Shown: positions 18,763-36,226 of the stretch, piece by piece
Position numbering within the stretch: the stretch's first letter is position 1
How the letters are laid out: each line of letters starts with the position of its first letter
Virus record (IMG/VR): IMGVR_UViG_3300009551_000023
Coordinates: 1-48,017 of that record
DNA: 48,017 nt
Source of the DNA: a virus
Direction: 5' to 3' (one strand)
The notes under the pieces: model-generated
Told to the model about the DNA's origin: nothing
Seen by the model: only the letters and a program-made list of their open reading frames with translations
Database searches by the model: none
Program-made: the position numbers and the translations under genes

Positions 18763-19494
18763 CTATTGGCCTTTGAATGAAGCCGTTAGTCCGATCAAGT
18801 CTCCCGCAGTGCTGAAGGTGGCGGTGGGAGTGATCGAGGTACCAGATGCCTGGACGAGATAAGCGAAAGCCCCCTCGTAATTGACGCCTCCTGAAAAATC
18901 AGCCTGATCGAGAATCGTGAACCCCGGAGTGACGCCAGTCCACGTACCGCTCGTCGTGTTGCTGCTGAGGACCACCAGGATAATGTGCTGGCCGCTTCCA
19001 GGATCGTAAGGCCCCGCCCCTGCGGTCGGCGACACCGTAGTGATTCCTGAACTGCTTCCAGCCGTGGCCCCAGGATCGAGGTTGCCAGTCGTAAGCGTGT
19101 TGGAGAAGCACGCCGCGCCCCATGCATTAAACTCGCCACCAGGCCCTGTGAATGTGTGTCCCGATCCTACGGCAAAAGCTCCAGTAGAAGCGTTGGCATA
19201 CCACAAGCTTGTTCTGCCGCTATCCCAGAATGCAAGAACGTACGTGTTGCTCTTGCTGTCTGTCGGAGCGCTCCCACCGCCAGATCCTGCCCCACTTTTC
19301 CAGACAAAACATTCCGTTGATCCCGTGGAAACGATTGCCGATGAAGTACCACCACCAGCAGGACCGAGGATATGAGAGATCAGCGTGATTGTGCCGCCGC
19401 CACCGCCTCCCGAAACAGGTAGCCCAGGACCGGGGAATGGCATCACCTGCGCGCCGGCAGAGAATGCAGCTAGGAGTAGAAGTGCGAGTTTCAT
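18763..19494 (-). CDS. Exported beta-rich protein of unknown function
   Basis: A 243-residue protein whose start at 19494 overlaps the preceding stop by ATGA. A signal peptide (MKLALLLLAAFSAGAQ) is followed by a Pro/Gly linker and a Ser/Thr/Gly-rich beta-sandwich-like body containing AGSGGGSAPTDSKSNTYVL, VYWYANAS-like (LWYANASTGAFAVGSGHTFT) and GQHIILVVLSSNTTSGTW. The strand layout resembles adhesin-like proteins of phages and environmental bacteria. It is the middle member of three consecutive exported proteins and is probably co-translated with them. Confidence 0.65.
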   Translation of the reverse strand: MKLALLLLAAFSAGAQVMPFPGPGLPVSGGGGGGTITLISHILGPAGGGTSSAIVSTGSTECFVWKSGAGSGGGSAPTDSKSNTYVLAFWDSGRTSLWYANASTGAFAVGSGHTFTGPGGEFNAWGAACFSNTLTTGNLDPGATAGSSSGITTVSPTAGAGPYDPGSGQHIILVVLSSNTTSGTWTGVTPGFTILDQADFSGGVNYEGAFAYLVQASGTSITPTATFSTAGDLIGLTASFKGQ

Positions 19495-20294
19495 CGAACT
19501 ATCGTCCAGTTGAGAGTGGCCGCACCGGGAGTGATGCTGCTGCCCGTTCCATTGCAGACCGCGAAGTTCACGGCATCCGCACTGATCCACGGGTAGATTT
19601 TCAGCCCATCTGCGGAGCCAGCCCCATATCCCGTAACACCGCTGATATTGGCGTTCGGTGTCCAAGTCATCGAATCAGTCGAGAGTGCGCCAGTCGCTGT
19701 TACCGTCACAGTGGAGGCGCAGGCATTGGCCGTGATTGCTGAAGTGCCAAGCGTGGCAGTGCCGCTCCACTTGCGCACCATCGTGTACGGGTTTCCGCTG
19801 GAATCCAGACAGATTTGCGTGTTCGCCGTAGAATCGAAATAGCAGGTTACATTGCCGGATGCCGGCGTGGATGGCACCGTGCCCGTTGCTCCCGTGACGA
19901 CGTACGGCCCGCTTCCTGTGACCGACAGGACCTTTTTCCAGGTGTTCGTGGCACTGCACCACCATTGTTCCTGCGTGTCCGTATCCACGTAGGTTGCCAA
20001 ATTCGAGCTTGACGGCGCGGTGCAGTTTGCCGATGGGTTGCCGGTGCCTGTGGTCACGGTAACAACGCCTGATCCGCCACCGCCGCCATACCGCGTCCAC
20101 TGGCTGCTCACGCAGGTGAACATCCAGCCGCTACTGTCGAGATATCCTATCCGCCGAGATCCCGTGCAAGAGCCGCCTTCGCCGCCAGGCGGGTTGCCTC
20201 GCAACATCGCAGACGGCGGATTTACTGGCTGGGCATTGATCGGTTGCGCGAATATCACAACCGCAAATAGGAACAGCGCGATCAGATAGCGCAT
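19491..20294 (-). CDS. Exported Gly/Thr-rich protein with C-terminal beta domain
   Basis: A 267-residue protein. A hydrophobic signal peptide ends near AQPINAQP (residue ~22). Residues ~40-70 hold four Cys around GGSCTGSRRIGYLDSSGWMFTC. The last ~90 residues form a domain (LGTSAITANACASTVTVTA ... DGLKIYPWISADAVNFAVCNGT ... LNWTIVR) that I associate with phage or prophage structural and adhesin proteins. Even Cys content fits an exported protein. It overlaps the upstream 95-residue gene and is ATGA-coupled to the next exported protein. Confidence 0.65.
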   Translation of the reverse strand: MRYLIALFLFAVVIFAQPINAQPVNPPSAMLRGNPPGGEGGSCTGSRRIGYLDSSGWMFTCVSSQWTRYGGGGGSGVVTVTTGTGNPSANCTAPSSSNLATYVDTDTQEQWWCSATNTWKKVLSVTGSGPYVVTGATGTVPSTPASGNVTCYFDSTANTQICLDSSGNPYTMVRKWSGTATLGTSAITANACASTVTVTATGALSTDSMTWTPNANISGVTGYGAGSADGLKIYPWISADAVNFAVCNGTGSSITPGAATLNWTIVR

Positions 20295-21482: not shown

Positions 21483-21753
21483 GATGGCTTATCGCTTGCT
21501 GCGCTGCCCATTTCAATTCTCTGGCAGTCTTTTCATATCCATGGAATTCTAAAAGATCTGCACAAGACAATGCCTTCATGATTAAATGCCTTACCGCATC
21601 GTCATCGTAATCCCATATATTTACAGGACACACCCTACCATCCCTTAGATCAAATTTCTGCATCGGATGTCTCCGCGATAGCCACCACTGTTTCTTTAGG
21701 AGCAATCGCTTGGTATGGCTCCATATATCTTTAGTGTTTCGAGTGTCTGTCAT
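21466..21753 (-). CDS. Hypothetical protein coupled to portal
   Basis: A 95-residue protein whose start overlaps the portal stop (ATGA). It is mixed helical and basic in the N-terminal third, with HLIMKALSCADLLEFHGYEKTARELKWAAQQA near the end. No family recognised. Confidence 0.55.
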   Translation of the reverse strand: MTDTRNTKDIWSHTKRLLLKKQWWLSRRHPMQKFDLRDGRVCPVNIWDYDDDAVRHLIMKALSCADLLEFHGYEKTARELKWAAQQAISHHGSSK

Positions 21754-23711
21754 TCGGTTTGCGCCGTCGCCTCATGCACCCGCCTCAAAGCCTCTGCAAT
21801 CCTGCGCGTCGGTCTACCTGCGATGTCTCGCGCCGATTCCTTGGCCACTGGATGCGGGGATTCTTCGCCAGTCTTCGGATCAATCAGAGGCTCACCACCG
21901 GGTAGCTTCTGTGTGGGCATAATCGGCGCGGCAATCTCCTGCTCGGATCGGTCGATCTTGTATTTCCCCTCGGGGAACATCTTCTCGGATAGCTCCTGTC
22001 CGTCTTCGATGCCCAACAAGTCGAAGAGCTTGATCACGCCAGCCTTCAGGTCAATGCCTACCGCTTGGCCGCCCTTGTTATTAAGCGTGATGGCTTCGAC
22101 CGTCGCCGCCACTAAAGCCTGCAAGTCGCCCTCGCGAATCGCAGGGAAGTTTACCTGAATTTCAATCTCTTCGTCGCTTGGCTCCATCGCTTCGTAGACG
22201 ACTTCGCCGCGTGGCCCTCGCTTGCGCCTGCATTCGCGGATCTCCGTCCACCCGCTTCGCATCGACTCTCGCAGTCTGCCGCTGGGTGCCCCGGCTGAAA
22301 CCTCCAGCACGTATTTCGCGATCACAACCAGATCCTCGCGCCACGCTTCCTGCTTCTCCAGGAAAATCGTTTCGGTCGGTCGGTCAAGGCTGGTAGCCGT
22401 CGCCAGATTGCCCGTGCTCACATCCGCAAGGAACGTTTCAGGTACGCCCGCCACCATCGCGCACATGAGTTTGTATTGCCGCACGTCGTCAGGATTGCCG
22501 CCAGCACCCGTCATATTGAAGGCTTCCACCTGCGTGCCTGGTCCGGTCACAACCGAAGCTCCGCTTACCGCTGGCGGGTTGGTATCCCAGATCGGCGTCT
22601 GCGGCCCCACGGTGGTCTGCATCTGTTGTTTGATGCCCTCGATAGCCTGCTGCCCGCCCTTTGTCGTCCACTTCAGCCCGATCTGCATCAAGGTTTGCTT
22701 GAGACTCGCACACGCCGTCAGGATGTGTTTCGCCTCCTTCGCCCAATCAATCATGGGATAGTTGCGTGGGCACCCGAAAAGCCACTTGCCGACGTATCCG
22801 CACTTGCGATGGTAGACGGGATAATCCCACATCACAGGTGACTTGTTGAATTCCGCAGGCTTCTCTGGCGGGTCGAATCCGATCGCTGGATACCAGCACG
22901 ATTGCGTGGTTTCTCCCACTTCGCCGCGCTGTGGATCGAATGTCTTCTGAGTCCAGATGCGCTGGTAATACCACGGAGTATCCGAATCCTCCGGGTCGGT
23001 CACGATCTGTTGAATCTCGGTCGCGTCAATCCGCCGCGCATCTACCAGCCCCTTGTTTTCGCGGTCAGAGAAAAAGCACCAGAACAAATTTCCGTCGTAG
23101 TCCTTCGCCTTCTCCGATTCCACCAGCGCAATCTGCCCGAAGACTTTCTTGTTGCGCTCGAAGAAATCCTTCAGCACCTCATTGGCGGTTTCGTCTGAGG
23201 TCGTAACTTCCACACCGCGAGCGAACACGTAAGCCGCGCACACGTCGATCAGCCGCCGCACGATGGGGTTCTTGATGTAGTAGAGACGGCAGATCAGGAT
23301 AATCTGCTGAATACCCCAGCGCGAGAACTCCAGCCACGACAGCGCCGTCTCCCTGCGCCAGCCGATATTGGCCAGCATCAGGTTGATGTCGCCCGTTGCG
23401 CCGATCGCGCCGTCGATCGACTCGCGCACTTTGAAGTGTTCACGCGCGTCCTGAATGATGGCCTCGGTTGTCGCCAGCGCAGCAGGCCCCGCACTCCACG
23501 GCCCCGCGCCGGCCATCTGTTTTGCTTCGGCGAGCTCGCCCACCATCGACACGTAGCTGTCCATGGCATCGCGCATCTGCTCCTGTTGCAGCAGTGCGAC
23601 TAGCTGTTCTTGCAGCCACTGATTCTGGCGGCGCAGATCGGGATCGGGGTCAGTTTTCGGCTTGAGATGCCGGTAGGCTTTGAGCAGTAGGCCGCGAAGG
23701 CGTTGGCGCAT
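21750..23711 (-). CDS. Portal protein
   Basis: A 653-residue protein placed between terminase and the head genes. An N-terminal helical region is followed by the portal-like core (YYIKNPIVRRLIDVCAAYVFARGVEVTT; LFWCFFSDRENKGLVDARRIDATEI), where IVRRLID and the ARGVEV segment are typical. GVPETFLADVSTGNLATATSLDRPTE matches the conserved portal segment near the channel helix. The C-terminal ~60 residues are Pro/Glu-rich. It is longer than many siphovirus portals (450-550). Confidence 0.85.
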   Translation of the reverse strand: MRQRLRGLLLKAYRHLKPKTDPDPDLRRQNQWLQEQLVALLQQEQMRDAMDSYVSMVGELAEAKQMAGAGPWSAGPAALATTEAIIQDAREHFKVRESIDGAIGATGDINLMLANIGWRRETALSWLEFSRWGIQQIILICRLYYIKNPIVRRLIDVCAAYVFARGVEVTTSDETANEVLKDFFERNKKVFGQIALVESEKAKDYDGNLFWCFFSDRENKGLVDARRIDATEIQQIVTDPEDSDTPWYYQRIWTQKTFDPQRGEVGETTQSCWYPAIGFDPPEKPAEFNKSPVMWDYPVYHRKCGYVGKWLFGCPRNYPMIDWAKEAKHILTACASLKQTLMQIGLKWTTKGGQQAIEGIKQQMQTTVGPQTPIWDTNPPAVSGASVVTGPGTQVEAFNMTGAGGNPDDVRQYKLMCAMVAGVPETFLADVSTGNLATATSLDRPTETIFLEKQEAWREDLVVIAKYVLEVSAGAPSGRLRESMRSGWTEIRECRRKRGPRGEVVYEAMEPSDEEIEIQVNFPAIREGDLQALVAATVEAITLNNKGGQAVGIDLKAGVIKLFDLLGIEDGQELSEKMFPEGKYKIDRSEQEIAAPIMPTQKLPGGEPLIDPKTGEESPHPVAKESARDIAGRPTRRIAEALRRVHEATAQTE

Positions 23712-23735: not shown

Positions 23736-23909
23736 TTATTTGATTGGGCCACCAAAGACTTGCAGCCCAACAATGAGCAGCAGCACGTAAAACAGGAAGT
23801 GGCGAAAGCCGCGCGGGTATGGGTATGGCTGACCGGGAGTGTATTCAGCCCAGAATCCGAACAGTAACGAGATCACGTAGATTATCCAGAACCACACTGA
23901 TAGAGCCAT
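23736..23909 (-). CDS. Two-TM membrane microprotein
   Basis: A 57-residue protein with two hydrophobic segments (~4-20 and ~38-53) separated by a Pro/Tyr-rich loop (EYTPGQPYPYPRG). It sits between the last glycosyltransferase and portal, with TAGACT exactly 7 nt before its ATG. Size and topology fit a class II holin or a small membrane accessory protein of the sugar cassette; neither can be proved here. Confidence 0.65.
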   Translation of the reverse strand: MALSVWFWIIYVISLLFGFWAEYTPGQPYPYPRGFRHFLFYVLLLIVGLQVFGGPIK

Positions 23910-23919
23910 GGCCCTAAGT

Positions 23920-24786
23920 CTACGCTAATACTCCGTAGTCCGTCAGTCCCGCTTCAATCCCAGGATTCTCCCGCATGATCCGCAGCGCTTCCGCCTTCTG
24001 CCACGGCTCCGCATCGACATTCAGGTATTGCAGCAACGATTCGTAACCCGCCCACCATTCAGCAGGCGTAGGAGCCATCCGGTCAACTGCATTCACGGTC
24101 GGGTCGTACATTACGTTCAACTGTGCAGGCGTCCGCTTATTCGGCCACCGCAGCCGTTCAATCAGCTTGTACAGAAACTGCTTCCACCGCAATCGCTGAT
24201 AACTGACCATCTGGCAGTGCATGATGCCACCAGTTCGCGCCATCCCCATCGGCATATAGCCTACGAACGGTCGCCCCATCGGGTGCCTGTGGTGATGATC
24301 GTAGCCATTCTGCGCGCGCCAGAAGTATTCCGCCATGTCGGGGAAGGCCACCGAAGCGTTCTGCTGCCCCCACAAGCCAGTTGTATGCACTTGGTTGATG
24401 CTGCCCCGCAGTTGGAGCCATGGGAGTTGTAGAACCTGCCCGTGCGGTGTGCGTTCGACCATCGCGCGGATGATCGGAAGAAAGTTCGCCGTCAGGATTT
24501 CGTCGGCATCCACAATTACAACGTGCGAGGCATCAAGGAAGCGGGCGGCATCCAACAGCTTTTGCCTCTGGGACATCTCGCGCCAAGTGGGATCGTTGTC
24601 TTCCATGACCGTCACTCTCCCCGGCCCGTATTCGATCACCAGCGCGTCTAGGATGGCTCCGGTATTGTCGGTGCTGGCGTGGCTCAGCACGACAACCGAA
24701 TCCACCCATCGCATCAGCGCTCGCAGGCTGCAGCCGAGAATCCATCCCTCGTTACGAACTGGGAGAATGGCGACGATGCGGCTCAT
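23920..24786 (-). CDS. Glycosyltransferase, family 2 type (GT-A)
   Basis: A 288-residue protein. The opening IVAILPVRNEGWILGCSLRAL and VVVLSHASTDNT are the canonical GT2 nucleotide-sugar binding strands. IVDADE at 92-96 supplies the metal-binding DxD. A C-terminal His/Arg-rich part (YDHHHRHPMGRPFVGYMPMG) probably binds acceptor. It is ATGA-coupled to the dehydrogenase gene and is the last enzyme of the cassette. Confidence 0.85.
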   Translation of the reverse strand: MSRIVAILPVRNEGWILGCSLRALMRWVDSVVVLSHASTDNTGAILDALVIEYGPGRVTVMEDNDPTWREMSQRQKLLDAARFLDASHVVIVDADEILTANFLPIIRAMVERTPHGQVLQLPWLQLRGSINQVHTTGLWGQQNASVAFPDMAEYFWRAQNGYDHHHRHPMGRPFVGYMPMGMARTGGIMHCQMVSYQRLRWKQFLYKLIERLRWPNKRTPAQLNVMYDPTVNAVDRMAPTPAEWWAGYESLLQYLNVDAEPWQKAEALRIMRENPGIEAGLTDYGVLA

Positions 24787-25751
24787 CGGTTCGCCTCGTA
24801 AACCGATTCAACAATCCGCAGCGCCGCCTGAGCCTCGCGAATCCCCGGCACTGAAGTGCGCTTCAGCCGGATATCCTCGCAGAACTCCAGCCATTCGCGC
24901 TCCCAGGAATCATCCGCCATCGGGTATTCCCACTTCGTAGTGGTGGGCGGTCCCATCTCGGGAGACATCGCATACAGCGTGCAGGATTCCACGCCGTAGC
25001 TTCCGCCGAGTCCGTTGATTTCGAGCTTTCCGCGCTCACCGAATATCTCGAAACTGAATAGGTTTTTCCATTCGGTGTTGGAAACGTGGAGTTGTGCAAC
25101 GGCCGCTGGCTCTTCGGTGGCCAATACCAAAAAGGCGTTATCTTCAACTTCGCAATCCCAAAACGCCCGCAACCCCGTCCCGTGAGCAATCCTTACCGAT
25201 CCCATGAACCATCCACACAGGTCGATCATATGCACGCCCATGTCGATCAGCACGCCGCCTCCTGAAATCTTGGGATCGGCCCGCCATTCCTTCTCATAGC
25301 CCAATCGCCCGCCGTGGCCGTATCGCCCGCGGATGTACATCAGATCGCCGATAGCGCCCGCGTCGAACAGTTCGCGAGCCTTCTGGATGGTGCGGTGGTA
25401 GCGGTGATTGAAGCCGACACGCACGCAAGCACCGCGTGGCGTGGCCGAATCCATGATGGAGTCGAGGCGCTTTGCGCAATGCGCGGCAGGCTTCTCTATC
25501 AACACGTGCTTGCCGAAAGCCGCAGCGGCACCAGCAATTTCTGGCGCGACATCCGGCGTTGTGGCGATGATGACGGCATCAACATCTTGGCGAGCAATAA
25601 TCGGCCTCCAGTCGATATCGGCCTGGAATGCTCCGACTTCATATGCCTTGTAGATATTTGTGTCGCAAGCCCATACCAAGTGATCTTCCGCCCGCAGCGC
25701 TTTTGCCCGCCGCTGTCCGATCTTGCCGCAGCCGATGATGGCAACGTTCAT
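24783..25751 (-). CDS. Gfo/Idh/MocA-type NAD(P)-dependent sugar oxidoreductase
   Basis: A 322-residue protein of normal family length. It has an N-terminal Rossmann fold with IIGCGKIGQRR at 5-15, the EKP motif at 86-88, and the C-terminal alpha/beta dimer domain starting near GFNHRYHR, with GGGVLIDMGVHMIDLCGWFMG carrying the conserved D...H pair. Family members oxidise or reduce nucleotide sugars and related polyols. Here, between an SDR and a glycosyltransferase, it most likely makes a modified nucleotide sugar. Confidence 0.88.
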   Translation of the reverse strand: MNVAIIGCGKIGQRRAKALRAEDHLVWACDTNIYKAYEVGAFQADIDWRPIIARQDVDAVIIATTPDVAPEIAGAAAAFGKHVLIEKPAAHCAKRLDSIMDSATPRGACVRVGFNHRYHRTIQKARELFDAGAIGDLMYIRGRYGHGGRLGYEKEWRADPKISGGGVLIDMGVHMIDLCGWFMGSVRIAHGTGLRAFWDCEVEDNAFLVLATEEPAAVAQLHVSNTEWKNLFSFEIFGERGKLEINGLGGSYGVESCTLYAMSPEMGPPTTTKWEYPMADDSWEREWLEFCEDIRLKRTSVPGIREAQAALRIVESVYEANR

Positions 25752-26479
25752 ACAAGCCTCCGAAGCGTGAGCAGTTCAGGAGACTCCACCAATCTGCGCT
25801 TAAGTGCTTCGCCATCTTCCCAGTGATCCCACTTCGCACTGATCAGCCGCCCCGTAATCGGCCTGCTATCGTCGCTGGCGAGCCACGCAACAAGCTCAGC
25901 CGCCCGGTCTGGTGGGTCACCATCGGGACTGCCCATGCGCGTATTCAACAGCCCCGGAGCCACGCAGTTGACGCGGATGCCGTACCGCTCGACTTCAGCC
26001 GCGAGCGTCTCGCTGAATCGCACCAGCCCGCATTTTGCCGTGGCATAGGCGCTGTAGTTGGGACGCGGCGATGTGGCCCCACCGCCGCTGATGTTGATGA
26101 TGGAGCCTGCTGTTTTGGTCTCTTCCATCCATGCCGATACGAGCTTACAGAGTTCAACGGGAGCGAAGAGATTAACCTTCAGGCATCGCTTCCAATCGTC
26201 AATGTCGCACTCGGCCATAGGGCCAACTGGGCCGGTAATCGCCGCATTATTGATTAGGATATCGACAGAGTCCCAAGTCTCTCTGGCGTATTGCATTACG
26301 AATTCTGGAGACTGGAAGTTGGCCAAATCTGCCTTTACGTGGAACGCCATTACTTCAGCGATTCCGTCCCGATTGACCGACATCACCTTGCATCCCTCGC
26401 GCACCAACACTTCCGCGATCTTCGCGCCCAGCCCGCGCGAGGCTCCCGTTACGATGGCCCGCTTGCCCTTGAGCTTCAT
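25748..26479 (-). CDS. Short-chain dehydrogenase/reductase
   Basis: A 243-residue classical SDR. TGASRGLG at 11-18 binds NAD(P), NNAA at 77-80 is conserved, and Ser131 with YATAK (Tyr145, Lys149) forms the catalytic set. All key residues are present, so the enzyme should be active. It is coupled on both sides by ATGA overlaps and probably works with the neighbouring Gfo/Idh/MocA enzyme on a sugar or small polyol. The substrate cannot be read from sequence. Confidence 0.88.
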   Translation of the reverse strand: MKLKGKRAIVTGASRGLGAKIAEVLVREGCKVMSVNRDGIAEVMAFHVKADLANFQSPEFVMQYARETWDSVDILINNAAITGPVGPMAECDIDDWKRCLKVNLFAPVELCKLVSAWMEETKTAGSIINISGGGATSPRPNYSAYATAKCGLVRFSETLAAEVERYGIRVNCVAPGLLNTRMGSPDGDPPDRAAELVAWLASDDSRPITGRLISAKWDHWEDGEALKRRLVESPELLTLRRLV

Positions 26480-26772
26480 GTCTTGACTCCAAATCGAGGC
26501 TTCATCCAGTCTGATAACGGGAACCTATCGCTCGGAACATAATCGCTCGCCACGACGTTGCAGAATCGCCAGTCCGTTGCCTCGGGCCAATCTTTCAGAA
26601 CGTAGCGCTTTGCCGCGTCTTCGTCCTTGGCGCTTACGACCGCGCAAAGGCTCGACTCGCCTTCCCCGCGCTCTCCGCTTCTCCACCATCCCAAAATGTG
26701 GTTATTCGGGGGGAAAGTCAGCGGCCTGTAATCTTCTCCCGGCTGCCACCACGAAATCCAAAATCTGATCAA
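26476..26772 (-). CDS. Small Trp-rich protein of the sugar cassette
   Basis: A 98-residue protein starting MIRFWISWWQPGEDYRP with a WxxWW-type aromatic N terminus and KDEDAAKRYVLKDWPEATDWRF in the middle. Similar small proteins occur beside phage sugar genes but I cannot name a family. ATGA overlaps on both sides show it belongs to the operon. Confidence 0.6.
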   Translation of the reverse strand: MIRFWISWWQPGEDYRPLTFPPNNHILGWWRSGERGEGESSLCAVVSAKDEDAAKRYVLKDWPEATDWRFCNVVASDYVPSDRFPLSDWMKPRFGVKT

Positions 26773-27386
26773 TTTACCCTCCGTAAAATCAGGTTTTCCT
26801 GATTCTGCTCCACGATCACGTACCCCAGAGGCCGCGCCACCTGCATGATCTCGACTGCCCGCCCGTTGTACTCTACGCAGATCACCTTGGGGCGATGGTC
26901 CGTCCGCATCAGCGCAATGCAGATTTCTGTGGAACTGCCCTCGGTGTCGATGGACGCGAAGTCTATCGCCTTATCCCCGAAGAACTGCGAGAGCAGCGCT
27001 CCAATGCTGATCGTTGGCACCCACAGGTGGCCGTAGAATCCGCCGTGATAGCCCGGTCGCAGATCCTTCCAGCCGGCAACCTGCGCCTCGCTATCCGTTG
27101 ACAGCGCATCCTCGGTCACATGGAAGCGCGTCACGTGCCCCGGCTCAGCAGTGACAGCCGCGGCGATGATCTTCACCCGCTCGTTGTAACCGTGCGCTTT
27201 GATCTGGCGGTCCACTGCGAGGGGCGAGAACTCCACCAGAGTGGCGTCCCATCCGCGATCAATGAACAGTTTCGAGTTGGAGAACTCTTCGGGAAACCAT
27301 GCGCCGATTTCCAGTAGCGTCCCCTTGTAGTCAGGCGGGAAGCACGCCGCGATGATCGAATCCTCGCCGTTCTGAGAATGGCTCAT
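26769..27386 (-). CDS. FkbM-family methyltransferase
   Basis: A 205-residue protein. It opens SQNGEDSII, then LLEIGAWFPEEFSNS (SAM site, 25-30), VEFSP and the FkbM signature SIDTEGSSTEI (147-150 DTEG) near the end. FkbM enzymes usually O-methylate sugars or glycans. It is coupled on both sides and probably methylates the sugar transferred by the cassette. Confidence 0.85.
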   Translation of the reverse strand: MSHSQNGEDSIIAACFPPDYKGTLLEIGAWFPEEFSNSKLFIDRGWDATLVEFSPLAVDRQIKAHGYNERVKIIAAAVTAEPGHVTRFHVTEDALSTDSEAQVAGWKDLRPGYHGGFYGHLWVPTISIGALLSQFFGDKAIDFASIDTEGSSTEICIALMRTDHRPKVICVEYNGRAVEIMQVARPLGYVIVEQNQENLILRRVN

Positions 27387-27634
27387 TTCTGTGCCTCAAG
27401 CCTTTCCTTAATCGCGAAATACTGCTCGCGGTTGCACAGCAGCAATCCGCCGACGTATTTGTTTTCTAGGCCAATCGCCGCCACCACGTCACCGCCGACG
27501 CCTATCGTCACCTGCGTTCCGGCCTTCACCTTGCGTAGATTGGTCACGTTCTCAAGCGGAGCAATCTGGATATCCAGATTCTCAGCAGCCATCACTTTGC
27601 AAATGTCGAAATGTCCCACCTTGCTCATTCGCAT
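27383..27634 (-). CDS. Small beta-barrel-like protein of the sugar cassette
   Basis: An 83-residue protein with LRKVKAGTQVTIGVGGDVVAAIGLENKYVGGLLLCNREQYFAIKERL, suggesting a small beta structure capped by a C-terminal helix. Its start overlaps the preceding gene by 10 bp. No family recognised. Confidence 0.55.
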   Translation of the reverse strand: MRMSKVGHFDICKVMAAENLDIQIAPLENVTNLRKVKAGTQVTIGVGGDVVAAIGLENKYVGGLLLCNREQYFAIKERLEAQK

Positions 27635-28356
27635 CTCTCCCAGTAATCCTGCATGTCCACCATCAGCGCTTTATGCGGCGCGAAATCCATCTTCGGGTCC
27701 GGCACATGATCTGGCGGCATCCAGCCTTCATACCCGCGCCAGCAGCAAGCTACCCCGTTCGGCGTCCAGTACATCCGACAGCGCCAGCCCTGATCCATCA
27801 GGTACCGCACGCCGTCGCGTACCGCAGTGCCAAGCGTGTCGTGGAACATGATGATGCATTCGGGCTTCGCGTGTGCCAGTGCGCCCTTCGCATCGTTCAG
27901 CGGCTCGGGGCTGTCGTGGTTGCCGTCGATAACGAAGCCTTCGAATCCGCCATAGATGTTCGCCGCGTTGCTGTTCCAGAACCTACTCGCGGTCAATTCG
28001 TAAGGCCAGATGAATCTATCCCAGTGGTTAGTGTTCTCGCAGAAGCGATCCCAGAACGCCTCAACTTCCAACTCTGGATCAACCGCCAGTACGCGATAAT
28101 ATTCATTGGGGTGAGCTGAAGCGATAGTAGCCGCCGTCCATCCGAGACGCGCGCCGATGTCAACCCATGTGCCAGAGGGTACGGATTTGGCCACGTTGTA
28201 CAGTATCGCCGACTCATCCATCGTCCAATAGGTACAGCGCGGGTCGAAGTCTGGATCGCTCGGCGCATCGTAGCCGCAGTGCTGCATCGGCGGATCGAGC
28301 AGTTTGAAGTAGGGGCGCAGGTCAGGGGCGCGGAGGTTGCTTTGGTAGATTGCCAT
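27625..28356 (-). CDS. Class I SAM-dependent methyltransferase
   Basis: A 243-residue protein with the SAM motif TWVDIGARLGWTAATIA (65-72) and AVDPELE as the second motif. GFVIDGNHDSPEPLNDAKGALAHA and IIMFHDTLGTAVRDGVRYL match the Methyltransf_24/cephalosporin-hydroxylase-like group found in glycan and polysaccharide loci. TAATG overlap with the upstream glycosyltransferase. Confidence 0.78.
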   Translation of the reverse strand: MAIYQSNLRAPDLRPYFKLLDPPMQHCGYDAPSDPDFDPRCTYWTMDESAILYNVAKSVPSGTWVDIGARLGWTAATIASAHPNEYYRVLAVDPELEVEAFWDRFCENTNHWDRFIWPYELTASRFWNSNAANIYGGFEGFVIDGNHDSPEPLNDAKGALAHAKPECIIMFHDTLGTAVRDGVRYLMDQGWRCRMYWTPNGVACCWRGYEGWMPPDHVPDPKMDFAPHKALMVDMQDYWERCE

Positions 28357-29144
28357 TAGACGTTCCTGTATCGCGAGCCGCTATCGTTGCGCGGCCCCGC
28401 ACCATAACGCTGCTCGAAGACTTGGGGATAGAAGTTGTCTGTCCCGAATTTGGCGAGTTCATCGTTGCCAAATTCACACGCCTCTCTGTAAAGCTTGAAA
28501 TTATATTTATGTGCCAGCAGCGTCATGATCGCCTGCTCTGTGCGGTGCTCGTGGAATCCGGTAAGCTCTCTTGCTATTTTGCTAGGCGCGAATGTCGTTG
28601 CGAGAGGATTAAGACAGTATGTCTGCCATTCCATCAAGAATTGCTTCACGTGGTACGGTCCCTTCTGGAACAGCATGAATCGCGCGACTCCCGCTTGACT
28701 ACGCAACTCCACTGCACGCCTTCCCGGATAGTTCTCGCCAGCAGCCATTACCGCCCAACAGTCCCATTTGCAGAACTGCAGGTTGTCGCATCCCTGCGCC
28801 GCGAATAGCATCTGCCCGCCATCAGCAACGCAGCGGTCGAACAGTGGCGTCATGTCCGCTATCGGGTGCGTGTCGCCGTCAATGAACATCACCACATCAC
28901 GATCAGCCGCGAAGCGTTCCAGCGCGTCCATGATGATCAGAGGCTTCCATGCGAACCAGCACAGCCCGCGCACGCCAGGCAGTTCGAACAGCCAGCGATT
29001 CAGCTCGTAGAACGGATGCGCCCGAAGCCAAACGTCATCATAGACGTAGCAGGCATCCGCGCCGAAGCGCTTGTGATCTTCGACGGTGGCGCCGACCGTG
29101 GCTTCGTAGGCTGAGCCGCCGAAGGTTATGAGGATTTTGCGCAT
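28356..29144 (-). CDS. Glycosyltransferase-like protein with IDGD motif
   Basis: A 262-residue protein. MRKILITFGGSAYEATV is an N-terminal strand-turn, WFAWKPLIIMDALERF precedes VVMFIDGDTHPI (88-91), a DxD-type site in the position expected for a GT-A enzyme. Later segments (FMLFQKGPYHVKQFLMEW; FHEHRTEQAIMTLLAHKYNF) fit polysaccharide-type glycosyltransferases. It overlaps the small coiled-coil gene by 19 bp. Confidence 0.72.
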   Translation of the reverse strand: MRKILITFGGSAYEATVGATVEDHKRFGADACYVYDDVWLRAHPFYELNRWLFELPGVRGLCWFAWKPLIIMDALERFAADRDVVMFIDGDTHPIADMTPLFDRCVADGGQMLFAAQGCDNLQFCKWDCWAVMAAGENYPGRRAVELRSQAGVARFMLFQKGPYHVKQFLMEWQTYCLNPLATTFAPSKIARELTGFHEHRTEQAIMTLLAHKYNFKLYREACEFGNDELAKFGTDNFYPQVFEQRYGAGPRNDSGSRYRNV

Positions 29145-29272
29145 TGAGCTTCCAGTTCCTTAACCCGCTGCTGCAAGTTGAAAATCACCTGCAGGTTGGC
29201 ATAGTGCTTATCGCGCCAGTACTTCACAAGCTCGCGCTCTTGGTCGAAGTTCGCCTGCTCGACTGGGGTCAC
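29126..29272 (-). CDS. Small coiled-coil protein (GTG start)
   Basis: A 48-residue peptide. The GTG at 29272 overlaps the TGA of the preceding gene (GTGA). Almost all of it is predicted helix with heptad-like spacing (LVKYWRDKHYANLQVIFNL). A scaffolding or dimerisation role within the glycosylation operon is possible but unproven. Confidence 0.55.
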   Translation of the reverse strand: MTPVEQANFDQERELVKYWRDKHYANLQVIFNLQQRVKELEAQCAKSS

Positions 29273-30081
29273 AGCGGCTCCGATCCGGGGAATCCAGCAG
29301 CCTTGAGCGCCTCGAATACTGGCTTCATCTTCACGTAGTCGGCATCGAAGTGCTTCTGATGGGGAGCCCATTGGCCGCCTTTTCTGCGCGAGTGGTTATG
29401 GTAATGAATTAAGTCACGACGTTGCCAGAAGCACCCATACTTGATCGCAACGTTTTGTAGGGTTTCGTCAGCCCAGTTATGCCAGAATAGCTCGCACAGC
29501 GGCCCTTTCCCCTGGTTGATGCGCAGGCAGAATTCCCGCCCCATCCATGGACTGCCGCAGATGCGGTCGATCATGGCCGGCGCTTCTGGCCACTTCGCGC
29601 GGGCGTAGGCATCATCGCCCCAGCGATCGCCAGTCGGTTGCATCACGCCGAAGGTAGAGTAGTAATTCCGAGCGCTTGGCTGTTGCCCGGTCAAGTCCGT
29701 AAACTCGCCACTGCGAGCGTTGACCATCGCGCATATCACATTCTCCATCCGAAACCGCCCTTGCTGCTCTCCGAAATACCTTCCGCATTGATACTCAATC
29801 TCCCCTGCCGTGTGTCTCATATCCGGGTGCGTATCATCGCCCGCCGCCACAATCCAGTTGCACTCCAGATCATCCGCCAGGACGCCCTTGGCAAGGTAGT
29901 TCACCGCTTCCGGGTAGCCCCTGTACGGGCGCTCCATCATGATGTGCGCGTACTGCGAGTCGTAAATGTGGCCGGGGTCGCGCTGAATGCACAACTTGTA
30001 GCCTTGCTGGTGCCAGAGCCTGAAGCATTCATCGGCCTGCTCGGGAGGCAGAGCACTCGGCAGAACTAACCATACCGACAT
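29269..30081 (-). CDS. Probable glycosyltransferase
   Basis: A 270-residue protein starting at 30081 (TGATG overlap). It opens with MSVWLVLPSALPPEQADECFRLW and has NWIVAAGDDTHPD (GDD 81-83), the strand-plus-acidic arrangement of a GT-A donor site. FGVMQPTGDRWGD and SPWMGREFCLR follow, consistent with an acceptor region. I cannot assign a GT family number. The neighbouring GT2 genes support the call. Confidence 0.62.
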   Translation of the reverse strand: MSVWLVLPSALPPEQADECFRLWHQQGYKLCIQRDPGHIYDSQYAHIMMERPYRGYPEAVNYLAKGVLADDLECNWIVAAGDDTHPDMRHTAGEIEYQCGRYFGEQQGRFRMENVICAMVNARSGEFTDLTGQQPSARNYYSTFGVMQPTGDRWGDDAYARAKWPEAPAMIDRICGSPWMGREFCLRINQGKGPLCELFWHNWADETLQNVAIKYGCFWQRRDLIHYHNHSRRKGGQWAPHQKHFDADYVKMKPVFEALKAAGFPGSEPL

Positions 30082-30800
30082 CAGATCATCTCCATGTGAG
30101 TTCGGCAGTACGCATCCCATTCGGGCGTGCGCTTGAAATTCCCGTTACGCTTGGTGAAGTCGTACGCCCCGCTGGTGTTGCCACCGTGGACGCCGAAGAT
30201 GACGCGCGGCACTTCCCAGTCGATGCGATCACCTTGCTCAATTACCATGCTGTCCACCCCCACCGTCTTGCACCGCTTGGTAAAGCGCTCATCTTCGCCG
30301 TGGCTGACATGCTGGAACGTGTTCCGCTCCCACGTCTTCCGCCAGTACATCAGCGAGGCACCCAAAGCGTACAGAGGATTTGGGAATTGGTACAGCCACG
30401 CTTCGCCATCCTTGCGAGTATCCCAGAACAGCGCACAGTTGTAGCCCACGGCATCGGCGCCGCTCGCCTCCAGCAGCGCAACCTGTTCGGCAATGCGGTT
30501 AGGGTGGCTCCAGTCGTCCGAGTCCCAATGCGCGAAGATATCCGTCGATCCGATCGGCCACGTGGTGACGTACTCGTTGGCGTAGTTGCGCAGTTCCCCG
30601 ATGGTCATGCCGGATTCCTTGGCCTTCCAGTGGACCTCATTCTCGCGCCAGGCGATGTGTTCACCCCAAGCAGTATCGCCCGTGTCGAGCACCAGCAGGC
30701 CCTTGTTTTCGTAGGTCTGCGAGCGAAATGATTCGATCGCCCTGCGGTTCATGCCGCCGCGATCTCTGGTGAGCATGATGCAGGCTACTGACAGGCTCAT
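30081..30800 (-). CDS. Glycosyltransferase, family 2 type
   Basis: A 239-residue protein. The ATG at 30800 has GGAG 4 nt upstream and overlaps the stop of a 23-codon membrane peptide. VACIMLTRDRGGMNRRAIESFRSQTY is the usual GT2 opening, HWDSDDWSHPNRI (DSDD 93-96) the metal site, and HGEDERF (168-173) matches the catalytic-base ED motif. All expected motifs are present. Confidence 0.88.
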   Translation of the reverse strand: MSLSVACIMLTRDRGGMNRRAIESFRSQTYENKGLLVLDTGDTAWGEHIAWRENEVHWKAKESGMTIGELRNYANEYVTTWPIGSTDIFAHWDSDDWSHPNRIAEQVALLEASGADAVGYNCALFWDTRKDGEAWLYQFPNPLYALGASLMYWRKTWERNTFQHVSHGEDERFTKRCKTVGVDSMVIEQGDRIDWEVPRVIFGVHGGNTSGAYDFTKRNGNFKRTPEWDAYCRTHMEMI

Positions 30801-30868
30801 TCGCTCCACGCAGTTCTGGCCAACAGCACCACAGCAATCAGCAGCATTACCGCCATGTAGGGAATCAT
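30797..30868 (-). CDS. 23-residue membrane microprotein
   Basis: ATG at 30868 overlaps the stop of the zinc-ribbon gene (ATGA), and its own TGA overlaps the glycosyltransferase ATG at 30800 (ATGA). The peptide is nearly one transmembrane helix (MAVMLLIAVVLLA core) with a short WSE end. Double coupling argues for real translation, either as a functional peptide or as a coupling leader. Confidence 0.55.
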   Translation of the reverse strand: MIPYMAVMLLIAVVLLARTAWSE

Positions 30869-30972
30869 TTGCGCCTCGCTTGGCAGCGCGGGCATTTCGC
30901 CGCCCCGCCTTTCTTACGTGTCGGCCATTCGTGCTTGCAGTTTGCACATTTGGCGATTTCGACTTTCGACAT
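30865..30972 (-). CDS. Small zinc-ribbon protein, first gene of the sugar cassette
   Basis: A 35-residue protein with two knuckles, CANC and CPRC, around a basic loop (KHEWPTRKKGGAAK), a complete zinc ribbon. A TTGCAA-N18-TAGTAT promoter ends 7 nt before the ATG, so the mRNA may be leaderless. Such ribbons are common in phages; a regulatory or nucleic-acid-binding role is possible. Confidence 0.65.
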   Translation of the reverse strand: MSKVEIAKCANCKHEWPTRKKGGAAKCPRCQARRK

Positions 30973-30978
30973 GCACAT

Positions 30979-31009
30979 GATACTACCGTAAGGTGGTATC
31001 GAATTGCAA
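30979..31009. promoter_or_regulatory. Divergent control region with hairpin and promoter
   Basis: On the minus strand TTGCAA (31004-31009) and TAGTAT (30980-30985) are 18 bp apart. The -10 lies 7 nt before the ATG at 30972. An inverted repeat GATACTACC-GTAA-GGTGGTATC (30979-31000) overlaps the promoter, with nine pairs including one G-U and a GNRA-type loop if transcribed. This could be an operator controlling the sugar cassette and the divergent gene at 31031. Confidence 0.55.
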
Positions 31010-31030: not shown

Positions 31031-31255
31031 ATGACCGACGCCGTAACCATCGCTATCATCTCTGCCGTTGGATCGTTCGCCGCTGCTGCGCTCAGCCTCG
31101 CAAACAACATCGTCGGTCGCCGCAATACGCGCAATATCGCCACGCTGGAGAAGAATACCAACAGCATCAAGGATGCGCTCGTCAAGGTGACAGCGGAATC
31201 GGAATATGCCAAGGGGCTGAAAGCTGGCGAGGATAGCAAGTCTACACCGGGCTAA
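31031..31255 (+). CDS. Small membrane protein, candidate holin or lysis accessory
   Basis: A 74-residue protein with one N-terminal transmembrane helix (TIAIISAVGSFAAAALSLA) followed by a polar helix (IATLEKNTNSIKDALVKV) and a charged tail. Phages often carry such N-in proteins near terminase, sometimes annotated as holins or membrane proteins. It is on the plus strand, convergent with terminase and overlapping its last 14 bp. TATGCT lies 6 nt before the ATG and there is no Shine-Dalgarno site. Confidence 0.65.
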   Translation: MTDAVTIAIISAVGSFAAAALSLANNIVGRRNTRNIATLEKNTNSIKDALVKVTAESEYAKGLKAGEDSKSTPG

Positions 31256-32603
31256 TCTCGTATCCCTGCCCGTAGTACTGCACCACGCTTTGCGCTTCGC
31301 AGTCGATGACAAGCTCGGTGATCGCCCACACCAGAGCGTCCATGCGGTCCGGCGACTTCATGCTTGCCCCCGGAACGTAACTGCACATCTGCTTTTCCAA
31401 CTCCGCGAAGTATCCGATATGATGCACCCGGCCCTGTTCGTATAGCGCTGCCACGGGTTCAGCACGCACCGCCTTACCGCGAGACGCACGCACCGCACGA
31501 AACGGGATGTTCGGATCGACGGCACGCATGTTGCCCGCTACCAAGTCGCCGCCGTTATTGACTTCGGCCACGATGCGGTCTGCCTTCCACTTGCGGAATC
31601 CGTCGATGGCGATCTTCGCCCAGCCGAGCGGCGATTCCTTGCAGCTCAGATCGTCCATGACGATGACGTGCCCGCTGATGGTGAGGCCCGCAACCACGAT
31701 GCCGGTTTCATCGCTTTCCTCTCCCGACGTGACCGCAGGATCAATTGCGACCACTATCCGGTTGATGACGTTGAAACGCACGTCGATCAGTTTCACTCGT
31801 AGCCTGTCAATCGTTGCCATGTTCCACAGCGCGCCTGGAATATCCTCAAGCACTTCGGCCAAAAGCTCTTGGCGCCCTAATCGCGTGCCTTCGTATTTCT
31901 TGATGACGGTCTGAAAGAACTGCGGCGATAGGTTCCTGCGGTTATCGTACGTACTGCCGCGCGTCACTATGCAGGCAGGATCGTTCATGATGGACCGAAG
32001 CAGTTCTGTTGGCTTCGGTGTGGTGGTGATGACGCTGCGCAGTTCGTCGCCGATGCGGAATCCGAACATCAGGTTGTCCCATGCCTCTTGGCCGAATCGC
32101 CACGTCGCAAGCTCGTCCGCCCAGAAGCGACAGCACTGCGGCCCGCGCAATCGTTCTGGCTCATCGGCAGAGAAGCAATAAGCGATGTTGCCATTCGGCC
32201 ACGTGATCAGATGGCCCTTGGATGGTTCGTAATGCGGTTGCTGTCCGGGTGGATAGCAAGAGAGCAGGCCACCGTTCGGGCCTTCGATCATGACCTTACG
32301 GATGTCGGCTGCGGTGGGAGCGATTAGATGGATTGGTCCAGGCAGTGGCTTCTCTGCCCATTCGCGAACGGTTTCAGCCCCGACACGGGTCTTACCGAAA
32401 CCACGGCCAGCGAGCAATAGCCAGTGCGTCCAATTGCCCGCAGGTTGTACCTGATTCCAGCGTGCCCAGAACCCGCGCCAGTCGTAGATTACCTGCCACG
32501 CCTGCTCATTGTTGAGGCTCCGAATCGCTGCTTCCCGTTCCGCTTCGGGCAGCGAGGCTAGCAATTCTGCTGGTGAGAGCTTCTGTACCGCTAGTGTTGA
32601 CAT
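31242..32603 (-). CDS. terL: Terminase large subunit
   Basis: A 453-residue protein. The ATPase domain has Walker A AGRGFGKT (65-72) and Walker B FWADE (160-164), followed by the TTTPKPTELL coupling motif. The nuclease domain starts with VVAIDPAVTSG (286-294) and ends with SPDRMDALVWA, giving the RNase-H-like acidic set. Length is normal. The ATG at 32603 lies inside the small terminase gene (98-bp overlap), so translation is probably coupled. Confidence 0.95.
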   Translation of the reverse strand: MSTLAVQKLSPAELLASLPEAEREAAIRSLNNEQAWQVIYDWRGFWARWNQVQPAGNWTHWLLLAGRGFGKTRVGAETVREWAEKPLPGPIHLIAPTAADIRKVMIEGPNGGLLSCYPPGQQPHYEPSKGHLITWPNGNIAYCFSADEPERLRGPQCCRFWADELATWRFGQEAWDNLMFGFRIGDELRSVITTTPKPTELLRSIMNDPACIVTRGSTYDNRRNLSPQFFQTVIKKYEGTRLGRQELLAEVLEDIPGALWNMATIDRLRVKLIDVRFNVINRIVVAIDPAVTSGEESDETGIVVAGLTISGHVIVMDDLSCKESPLGWAKIAIDGFRKWKADRIVAEVNNGGDLVAGNMRAVDPNIPFRAVRASRGKAVRAEPVAALYEQGRVHHIGYFAELEKQMCSYVPGASMKSPDRMDALVWAITELVIDCEAQSVVQYYGQGYEISPV

Positions 32604-32922
32604 TCATCGAACCTGCGTGTTCGGTTACCTGCGTTTCCTTCCAGCCAGCACGACACTTCATCCAGAAGCATACCGCCCATGCCTCGCCCTCGGTTGCCTT
32701 CTGGAATGCTACCTGACCGATGCGGGCATTTGCCATATCCATGGCGGTGTCAAGCTCACGGCGAAAGTGGATGCGCAACGTCTCCGGGTTGATGCCGTCA
32801 GTGCCGATGCAGCGCGCAATAGCGATCTGCGAGAATCCACAAGCGGCCATGCTGCGCACGGTGTTGCGGTCTGCTTCGGTCGGCTGGTATGCGGGACGCC
32901 CGCCCTTATTCGGCTCGGTCAT
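32506..32922 (-). CDS. terS: Terminase small subunit
   Basis: A 138-residue protein directly before terL. The N-terminal half is a helix-turn-helix (TVRSMAACGFSQIAIARCIGTDGINPETLRIHF) for DNA recognition. The middle (AFQKATEGEAWAVCFWMKCRAGWKETQ) is the usual oligomerisation segment, and the C terminus is Ser/Thr-rich. It overlaps the methylase gene by 17 bp. Confidence 0.9.
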   Translation of the reverse strand: MTEPNKGGRPAYQPTEADRNTVRSMAACGFSQIAIARCIGTDGINPETLRIHFRRELDTAMDMANARIGQVAFQKATEGEAWAVCFWMKCRAGWKETQVTEHAGSMNVNTSGTEALTSRIASLAARSGTGSSDSEPQQ

Positions 32923-34210
32923 ATACTTCTTCCTTCACGGCGTCCTGCGCGCCGAGTCTACGTCCGAACTTAGCATGTTCAAACGTGCAGCCGTGGCCAT
33001 CGAGCGTGGCTTCCTTGCCCGTGAGGTTCTGCCAGCGGGTAACGGCGCAGTCCACAAATTCTGGCGCAATCTCCATTGCATAGCAGCATCGACCTGTCAC
33101 CTCCGCTGCTGCAATCGTGGTCCCTGATCCACTGAAAGGCTCGTAGCAAATGCCATTCGGATCGGTGTGATATTCGATTGGACGCCGCGCCAACTCGACG
33201 GGCTTCTGTGTGGGATGAATGCCGTCTGATTCTCCGATCTGGTTGATATTCCAGACGGTTGGAATATTGGCTGGTGGACGCCGAAAAGGTTTTCGGCCTT
33301 GCGGCCAACCGTAGAACGCCACCTCGTGCTGCCACATATAGTGACTGTGCGTAAGTACGGCATGCGCCTTCACCCAAACGATATGTTGGTGGACAAGTAG
33401 TCCGCACTTTAACCAGGCCTGATGCACAAGATACTGCATCAATGCCGCGTGCCATTGGTAAACAGCCCCCCCATCGGCGAGGTGCTCCAGTCCTACACGC
33501 ATGAATGTTTCGTAGAACTCAATGCTTGATGCGGGATCTTTATAGGACTCCCATCCCTTGTCTTTCACATCAGGAGAATTTGACAACGATTGCGGGTGAC
33601 TTCCGCCAGTGTAATTGACGAGGTACGGGGGATCAGTAGCCAGCAGATTCGCCTTCTTCCCATTCATCAATCGACCGACATGCTCGCTGTTGGTCGAATC
33701 ACCGCACAGCAGCCGATGCTCACCCATAAGCCACAAATCGCCAAGCTGTGACACTGGGGCAATCGGTACTTCCGGTACATCGTCTTCCGCCGCATTCGGC
33801 TGCAGCGTGAAGCTGTCAATCTCGCGCAGGTCGAAGCCGGTCAGCGATAGGTCGAAGTCCAGCGCCTTCAACTCGAGGAACTCCGCGCTGAGCATGTCGA
33901 TGTCGAATGTGGACTCGAGTGCTGAGCGGTTGTCCATCAGGCGAAGGCCACGGCATTGCGCCTCGGATAGATCGCGCGCCACGTGCACCGGGATCTCGGT
34001 CAGCCCCAGCGTGCGGGCGGCAGTGCGCCGCAGGTGGCCGATGATTATCACGCCTGCCTTATCAACTACCACCGGCTGGCGGAATCCGTAAGCCTTGATA
34101 CTGGCCGCGACTTTACTGATTGCGTGCTTCGACCACTTGCGTGCATTATTCGGATAATCGGTAGGCTTATCTATCGGCCAAGTTTCAATTGACAGTATGT
34201 TTTTAGACAC
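32906..34210 (-). CDS. ParB-N domain/DNA methyltransferase fusion (beta class)
   Basis: A 434-residue protein with GTG start at 34210. Residues ~8-85 form a ParB/Srx-like N domain with the GHLRRTAA motif (58-65). The methylase has DPPY (193-196) before EPFSGSGTT (357-365), the motif order of beta-class N6-adenine or N4-cytosine enzymes. There is no helix-turn-helix of the plasmid ParB type, so this is not a partition protein. It probably modifies phage DNA, possibly against restriction, and lies directly before terS. Confidence 0.9.
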   Translation of the reverse strand: MSKNILSIETWPIDKPTDYPNNARKWSKHAISKVAASIKAYGFRQPVVVDKAGVIIIGHLRRTAARTLGLTEIPVHVARDLSEAQCRGLRLMDNRSALESTFDIDMLSAEFLELKALDFDLSLTGFDLREIDSFTLQPNAAEDDVPEVPIAPVSQLGDLWLMGEHRLLCGDSTNSEHVGRLMNGKKANLLATDPPYLVNYTGGSHPQSLSNSPDVKDKGWESYKDPASSIEFYETFMRVGLEHLADGGAVYQWHAALMQYLVHQAWLKCGLLVHQHIVWVKAHAVLTHSHYMWQHEVAFYGWPQGRKPFRRPPANIPTVWNINQIGESDGIHPTQKPVELARRPIEYHTDPNGICYEPFSGSGTTIAAAEVTGRCCYAMEIAPEFVDCAVTRWQNLTGKEATLDGHGCTFEHAKFGRRLGAQDAVKEEVYDRAE

Positions 34211-35321: not shown

Positions 35322-35492
35322 TCAGTGCAAGTGGAATGCCGAACGATTTACGGCCCTTTCCGCGCTGATTTTCAGTTCGACGTACGCTTCCAGTTCGGAC
35401 TGAGTGAACGCGATGGTTCCGGCCAAGGCATCGTACGCTTCAGCCTTGCGCTTCCACTCAAGAATCATGGCCTCGGTAATCTTGCCTCTCAT
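35322..35492 (-). CDS. Small helical protein after the DpdA-like gene
   Basis: A 56-residue protein whose ATG overlaps the preceding stop (ATGA). It is mostly amphipathic helix (ITEAMILEWKRKAEAYDALAGTIA). No family recognised; coupling suggests a related role or simple operon membership. Confidence 0.55.
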   Translation of the reverse strand: MRGKITEAMILEWKRKAEAYDALAGTIAFTQSELEAYVELKISAERAVNRSAFHLH

Positions 35493-36226
35493 ACGAACTC
35501 CTCGATGAAATGCCCTTGATAAGGCCGTTCTATTTCAACAACATTGCGGAATCTCTGCGCCTCCCGGTAGTCGTTCGCATTGCGACCGCCTTTGCGAGCT
35601 GCAAAGCTCCATGCCATGGAATCGGCTGTTTCCAGCAGCGCTCGGATCAGCCCATGCGCCAGGGCGATGGTCTTAAGTCCAAAGCCGTGCAGCCGAAGAT
35701 CAGGCCGCCGCGCCTTGATGGCTATCAGCACATCGAGGATGGCTCGCGGGTCTCCGTTCCGCTTGCAGACCGAACCAACTCCCACCCATGCGCCATACTC
35801 CAGTCTGTCGCCGTACTGGTCGATGTGCGAGACGTACTCTTCAGGCATGTATCCTTGGAGTACAGGCATGATGTAACATCCCGTATCGCATTGCAACAAC
35901 CTGTCATACCGTGCAATCGTCAACCGCTGGTGGTCGGCTACCGTCAGTCCGGTGATTTTGAGCATTGACGGCTCGCACATGTAATCCTGCGTGACCGCTG
36001 CCAGCAGATTGCCGCATCGCTTCCATCGCCGGATCTGATCCCCGTAGACTTCCGGCTCCTCGGGATAGCCCCCGTGCTGCAAGATCGTCGAGAATGCCCT
36101 GCTGTCCAGAATCCAGTCGCCCACCACGAAATCAGACTTGCGATTCCGCAGTCGGCTGATGGAAACAAAGGCCGCATCGAAGTGCTTGGCGTCCGATGGC
36201 TGGTGTAATCCGACAAAGAATCTCAT
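35489..36226 (-). CDS. dpdA: DpdA-like 7-deazaguanine DNA insertion enzyme
   Basis: A 245-residue protein. The order DSRAFSTI (41-48), QDYMCEP (80-86), TGLTVADHQ (92-100), MPVLQGY (120-126), VGVGSVCKR (148-156), LHGFGLKT (179-186) and ADSMAWSFAARK (201-212) matches the TGT-related phage DpdA family, which swaps guanine for a 7-deazaguanine base in DNA. The usual DSG is DSR here. No preQ0 synthesis genes (folE, queD, queE, queC) are seen, so the base would come from the host. Confidence 0.78.
   Translation of the reverse strand: MRFFVGLHQPSDAKHFDAAFVSISRLRNRKSDFVVGDWILDSRAFSTILQHGGYPEEPEVYGDQIRRWKRCGNLLAAVTQDYMCEPSMLKITGLTVADHQRLTIARYDRLLQCDTGCYIMPVLQGYMPEEYVSHIDQYGDRLEYGAWVGVGSVCKRNGDPRAILDVLIAIKARRPDLRLHGFGLKTIALAHGLIRALLETADSMAWSFAARKGGRNANDYREAQRFRNVVEIERPYQGHFIEEFV

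Follow-up and report, generated by a model that had tools for sequence, protein, structure and literature searches.

Why a phage genome should carry a run of sugar genes between its terminase large subunit gene (terL) and its portal gene is the question raised by the locus described here. The stretch of DNA analyzed (hereafter, the window) is the entire IMG/VR virus record IMGVR_UViG_3300009551_000023 (48,017 bases), in which terL (31242-32603) and the portal gene (21750-23711), both on the minus strand and assigned by PHROG matches, flank a block encoding a zinc-ribbon peptide, a transmembrane (TM) peptide, four glycosyltransferases (GTs; designated GT2a, GTb, GTc, and GT2b from the terL side), FkbM and class I methyltransferases, SDR and Gfo/Idh/MocA dehydrogenases, and small proteins. 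An initial annotation, made from the sequence alone, had described terL and portal as split by a coupled set of sugar-modification genes, and this description holds: all open reading frames (ORFs) that it named are present, all on the minus strand, according to the ORF list and direct reading. The block is probably a version of an island for virion glycosylation that is both widespread and exchangeable, with virion proteins as the most likely target. Such islands, compact and often rearranged, are carried by many uncultured phages of soil type. The island is conserved, mobile, and reshuffled, which goes beyond what the initial annotation could see.

A scan of viral contigs with the GTb sequence alone found no relative; a profile scan of viral contigs with a two-sequence GTb alignment yielded 98 relatives (portal, 35; GT2b, 31). 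The unit GT2a-GTb-(variable)-GT2b recurs in 78 GTb loci of IMG/VR; GT2a precedes GTb in 50 of the 62 loci testable for it, and GT2b follows GTb in 51 of 56. Across these 78 loci, the cassette matches are co-directional without exception (348/348), and every recognized inner gene match lies between GT2a and GT2b (110/110). The islands are coupled runs of 4 to 13 genes with fixed anchors (median span, 5.7 kb). A GTc-like gene is present in 46 and FkbM in 36 of the 56 testable islands, and TylF as well as FkbM methyltransferases recur inside them. The core of the island is three GTs (GT2a, GTb, and GT2b), usually accompanied by a sugar-type methyltransferase. Outside the nearest relatives of the window, the SDR-Gfo pair was not found (L032 has Gfo without SDR), and thus these dehydrogenases are accessory and sugar making is not the core function; the two dehydrogenases that had been credited with making an unusual sugar are present, but only as an accessory of this kind. 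Megablast of the region against cultured phages gave no match. GT2a and GTb had no tblastn match in 50,697 phage records, GTb had none in plasmids, and GT2b and GTc gave only distant cyanophage or marine matches in the phage collection.

The window's copy of the island and its flanks comprise the following features, in order from terL to portal.

31242..32603, minus strand: terminase large subunit, left flank (PHROG 979)
30865..30978, minus strand: zinc-ribbon peptide, 37 amino acids (aa), with CxxC...CxxC read directly; a second ATG gives 30972
30797..30868, minus strand: TM peptide, 23 aa, with an ATGA overlap on each side, read directly
30081..30800, minus strand: GT2a, family-2 glycosyltransferase, left anchor (PF00535; likely ATG start)
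29269..30081, minus strand: GTb, predicted GT-A-like glycosyltransferase, unit core (predicted structure, invariant Asp-Asp, 98 relatives)
29126..29371, minus strand: coiled-coil small ORF over the GTb end (ORF list; match in L021; start uncertain)
28356..29144, minus strand: GTc, predicted GT-A glycosyltransferase of GT6/GT8-type likeness, DGD motif (predicted structure; 24-row alignment)
27625..28356, minus strand: class I methyltransferase MT24 (Methyltransf_24; PF13578, E 1.9e-9)
27383..27634, minus strand: small protein, 83 aa (ORF list; 100% aa identity to the near twin, dS 0)
26769..27386, minus strand: FkbM-type methyltransferase (PF05050, E 9.1e-8)
26476..26772, minus strand: Trp-rich protein, 98 aa, TTG start (ORF list)
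25748..26479, minus strand: SDR dehydrogenase (PF00106, E 5e-45; TGxxxGxG and YxxxK intact)
24783..25751, minus strand: Gfo/Idh/MocA sugar dehydrogenase, inositol/UDP-sugar dehydrogenase-like (PF22725, PF02894, PF01408)
23920..24786, minus strand: GT2b, family-2 glycosyltransferase, right anchor (PF13704)
23736..23909, minus strand: 57-aa membrane peptide in the GT2b-portal gap (ORF list; maximum Kyte-Doolittle 2.18)
21750..23711, minus strand: portal protein, right flank (PHROG 10963)

Neighboring genes mostly overlap by 1 to 19 bases (about 100 bases for the coiled-coil ORF and GTb), and at the start of the block, which was read directly, ATGA overlaps join the zinc-ribbon, TM peptide, and GT2a genes. 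Most of the internal junctions, together with the GT2b-portal junction, are reproduced in independent contigs (L020/L100, L021, L101, and L102), and misassembly of the block, a concern of the initial annotation, is thereby ruled out. That annotation had also given the block its own promoter at 30980-31009. A promoter scan found no minus-strand match there, and the region holds 6 promoter-like sites, compared with 6.7 +/- 2.4 in shuffled sequences; the candidate picked by eye (TTGCAA-18-TAGTAT) agrees with the consensus at about 8 of 12 positions. With sites at chance level, a private sigma-70 promoter for the block was rejected. A 74-aa ORF with a hydrophobic stretch and no Pfam match lies on the plus strand between terL and the cassette (31031-31255), opposite to its neighbors.

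Family searches and structure prediction, which the initial annotation had recommended, clarified what the enzymes are. Pfam supports GT2 for both end enzymes as well as the Gfo/Idh/MocA, SDR, FkbM, and Methyltransf_24 assignments, whereas GTb and GTc belong to no Pfam, PHROG, or NCBIfam family, have no PDB homolog detectable by sequence, and show no detectable homology to each other in a profile comparison. Both are predicted to be GT-A-like glycosyltransferases. The AlphaFold2 model of GTb, built with 65 natural homologs, has a mean pLDDT of 88, and a Foldseek search against the PDB matched GT-A glycosyltransferases with probability near 1 and an E value of about 1e-3, at low global TM-scores; structures of capsid GTs from the chlorovirus PBCV-1 were among these weak matches. 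Against BFVD, the GTb model matched phage and viral GT-A proteins with E values down to 1.8e-15. The GTc model (pLDDT 92) matched the blood-group enzymes GTA/GTB, LgtC, and LARGE1 in the PDB, with E values to 1.4e-5. Catalytic signatures, whose loss across relatives had been a further concern, are kept: the Asp-Asp pair of GTb is unchanged in all 79 aligned rows; among about 80 relatives, this pair, Gly-Val-Met-Gln-Pro, Asp218, and His241 vary little or not at all; and the SDR, Gfo, and GT2 motifs of the window are intact. The island also supplies glycosyltransferase families that are absent from Pfam, PHROGs, and NCBIfam and whose catalytic motifs are conserved over about 80 members.

Where the unit sits is as informative as what it encodes. 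In the portal clade of the window, it lies at the terL-portal junction, apparently even in members whose preceding gene is a different type of terL. A second location is seen in an unrelated HK97-type backbone, namely between the genes for the major capsid protein (MCP) and the head-tail connector or within the run of connector and tail genes. Among the carriers of this backbone is a prophage from an isolate, Acidobacteriaceae/Bryobacterales bacterium KBS 96, with the gene order GT2-GTb-FkbM-GT2. Other sampled GTb loci adjoin terL, Dit, neck, major tail, or MCP genes according to PHROGs. On the GTb tree, the backbone label has to change 11 times (6 or more of these changes are forced by well-supported branches), compared with a shuffled mean of 25.5, which indicates that the unit is clustered by backbone but has moved repeatedly, yet landing in structural blocks. 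Among 396 genomes of the phylum Acidobacteriota, the unit was found in KBS 96 only, plus two weak partial matches; it is thus rare in genomes and essentially phage borne. On a 4.4-kb contig of a "Ca. Sulfotelmatobacter" metagenome-assembled genome, ORFs resembling GT2a, GTb, FkbM, GTc, and GT2b follow one another in this order, as read from translations. The available part of an article on Acidobacteriota phages, which treats another KBS 96 provirus, mentions a glycosyltransferase only in Tunturi 5 (PMC11924767).

The same slot can hold other cargo. In members of the portal clade that lack GTb (L103, L110, L113, L115, L122, and L128-L130), other sugar genes occupy the space between terL and portal. 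GT2 accounts for 19 of 53 proteins in these GTb-negative slots, which also hold Methyltransf_24, epimerase/GDP-mannose dehydratase-like, rhamnosyl O-methyltransferase-like, DegT aminotransferase, GT11, and PIG-L proteins. The slot can also be without an island, given that in L125 the gap of about 2.9 kb contains no sugar gene recognizable from translations. The initial annotation had asked whether related phages lacking the cassette share the same terL-portal junction. Among terL relatives at 46-51% identity in named phages, portal directly follows terL in three (L015, L017, and L018) and comes after one small gene in a fourth (L019); L016 has a virion protein and other genes in between. Some terL-portal islands of relatives contain DNA methylases, sigma-70 factors, Mom, and HNH genes (pooled counts), and thus the slot also collects cargo of other kinds.

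Comparison with a near twin (L100; 98% aa identity in portal and 95% in MCP) revealed exchange at the scale of single genes. Nucleotide identity between the two is mostly 89-100% in GT2a and the small-protein, FkbM, Trp-rich, and GT2b genes, with blocks of 60-86% in GTb, GTc, part of MT24, SDR, and Gfo; the flanks are mostly 86-100% identical, apart from part of the prohead-protease gene. The small-protein and Trp-rich genes show no synonymous divergence (dS 0); dS is 0.2 for GT2a and FkbM, 0.43 for portal, 0.59-0.70 for SDR and Gfo, 0.78 for GTb, and 1.0 for GTc. We read these leaps from 0 to 1.0 between neighboring genes as differences in age that would have arisen through allelic recombination, i.e., allele swapping. 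The cassette genes are under purifying selection (dN/dS, 0.07-0.38 where computable). Outside the island, the middle of the prohead-protease gene (16694-17420) is about 60% identical to that of L100 and its flanks are mostly 90-97% identical, marking a second swapped segment.

What, then, would the island do? The virion target is favored because genes for particle assembly surround the unit in backbones that are unrelated to each other. Soluble GT2a, GTb, GTc, and GT2b, expressed within the late operon, would act in the cytoplasm and build up a short glycan on at least one protein of the particle; no TM segment was found in the cassette enzymes. The FkbM and class I methyltransferases would O-methylate, and thereby cap, this glycan, and in the window's subclade SDR and Gfo/Idh/MocA would tailor one of the sugars. 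Recombination between phages would swap the inner genes, and related phages would then carry different glycan coats, like bacterial O-antigen variation. The protein acceptor, late expression, the order of the sugars, capping, and the biological benefit are inferred. Several points weigh against this reading. The glycan and its acceptor are both putative, and the weak global TM-scores of GTb back the GT-A class and not a substrate. A site next to structural genes points to late expression, a timing that would equally suit a late modifier of DNA or of the host envelope. Candidate acceptors sought by the Ser/Thr content of structural proteins (a 137-aa protein, 15854-16267, next to MCP at 14520-15854, and 18763-20294) are suggestive only. 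The relatives are all metagenomic except for one isolate prophage, and GTb loci without a BLAST-typed site were only sampled with PHROGs.

A broader proposal, which we put forward tentatively, is that phages, mostly uncultured and partly of Acidobacteriota, keep a virion-glycan "serotype" locus inside the structural block, with fixed end GTs, interchangeable inner enzymes, and a model-less GT family, which moves between unrelated backbones and switches the coat gene by gene. If true, sugar coats of tailed phages would be common, modular, and rapidly diversifying and not a curiosity of a few mycobacteriophages. Fixed anchors and a swappable interior also make the purpose of particle glycosylation (receptor choice, protection, or evasion of binding) testable with near-identical phages that differ mainly in the island.

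The initial annotation had left the target open among virion, DNA, and host surface; the virion is now favored, and the other two are less supported. Modification of the host surface, in which the enzymes would alter O-antigen or capsule during infection or lysogeny and thereby block superinfection or change serotype, is unlikely. Surface polysaccharide loci typically contain GT2 enzymes, methyltransferases, and sugar-nucleotide enzymes, and a phage integrase in 8 of 32 island-bearing records indicates that some island phages are temperate. Yet serotype conversion of the gtr type pairs a GtrA flippase with a membrane GT, and the flippase (PF04138) was found in 0 of the 32 records, with control genomes positive, while the cassette enzymes lack TM segments. 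Moreover, the unit lies in the structural blocks of unrelated backbones and not near lysogeny genes.

Slightly less probable still is DNA hypermodification, in which the GTs would add sugars to modified bases, either 7-deazaguanines or hydroxymethylated pyrimidines, as a defense against restriction. A diversity of phage DNA glycosyltransferases is on record, as far as the available part of one report covers them (PMC12619734), and a few islands hold DNA methylases or Mom. The window itself encodes a DpdA homolog (35489-36226, minus strand; PF23859, E 4e-41), suggesting 7-deazaguanine DNA modification. This insertion enzyme was found in the window only (1/32 island-bearing records), and its coupling to the island was rejected, as it was not found in the 31 island-bearing relatives; a thymidylate synthase/hydroxymethylase-family protein (PF00303) likewise occurs in 1 of 32. 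A Tet_JBP search gave no match, but its controls were likewise silent and the search is not decisive. The FkbM/TylF-type methyltransferases better suit O-methylation of sugars. Finally, a loose hotspot gathering unrelated metabolic morons without a common product, which the highly variable inner content and the sigma factors, DNA methylases, and HNH genes of some members might suggest, is very improbable in view of the fixed anchors and order in 50 bracketed loci, the full co-direction, the tight overlaps, and the presence of alternative sugar genes in slots that lack the set.

Other features were observed elsewhere in the window and its relatives. The window encodes a fusion of a ParB domain and a DNA methyltransferase upstream of terS (32906-34210, minus strand; PHROG 498) and a single 2,722-aa ORF with only a weak FCD Pfam match (3574-11742, minus strand), perhaps the tail tape measure protein. 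The TerL of one relative (L008:7630-9933; IMGVR_UViG_3300037230_000043) is interrupted in frame by an intein of roughly 314 aa (Pfam Intein_splicing and Hom_end_hint), and terL of L110 and L134 shows a similar split of about 930 bases.

Bacterial O-antigen and capsule loci carry variable transferase and tailoring genes between conserved ends and exchange them by recombination. The island resembles them in its variable transferase and sugar-tailoring genes between conserved ends but differs from them, and from phage gtr modules, in that no flippase, polymerase, or membrane GT was seen. With the DNA glycosyltransferase systems of T4-like and other phages it shares phage-encoded GTs, whereas neither base-hydroxymethylation nor DpdA genes are coupled to the island. 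In the chlorovirus PBCV-1, virus-encoded enzymes (A064R and A061L) build capsid glycans and cap them with methyl groups (PMC9614988). Virus-encoded GT-A transferases and methyltransferases are common to both systems, but PBCV-1, in which the glycan is placed on the major capsid protein, is a eukaryotic virus, and its capsid GT structures match GTb weakly. A precedent among phages is virion glycosylation by phage GTs in the mycobacteriophages Che8, Corndog, and Myrna (Freeman et al. 2023, as summarized in PMC12363180 and PMC12619734). In the available parts of these reports, phage-encoded GTs are proposed to decorate particle proteins (capsid and tail tube), and single GTs are described as essential, whereas here a coupled island of anchors, methyltransferases, and dehydrogenases is involved. 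Phage-encoded GTs (Pfam GT2 and GT-A-like predicted structures) located among virion genes (terL-portal, MCP-connector, and connector-tail) are features that the island has in common with phage virion glycosylation.

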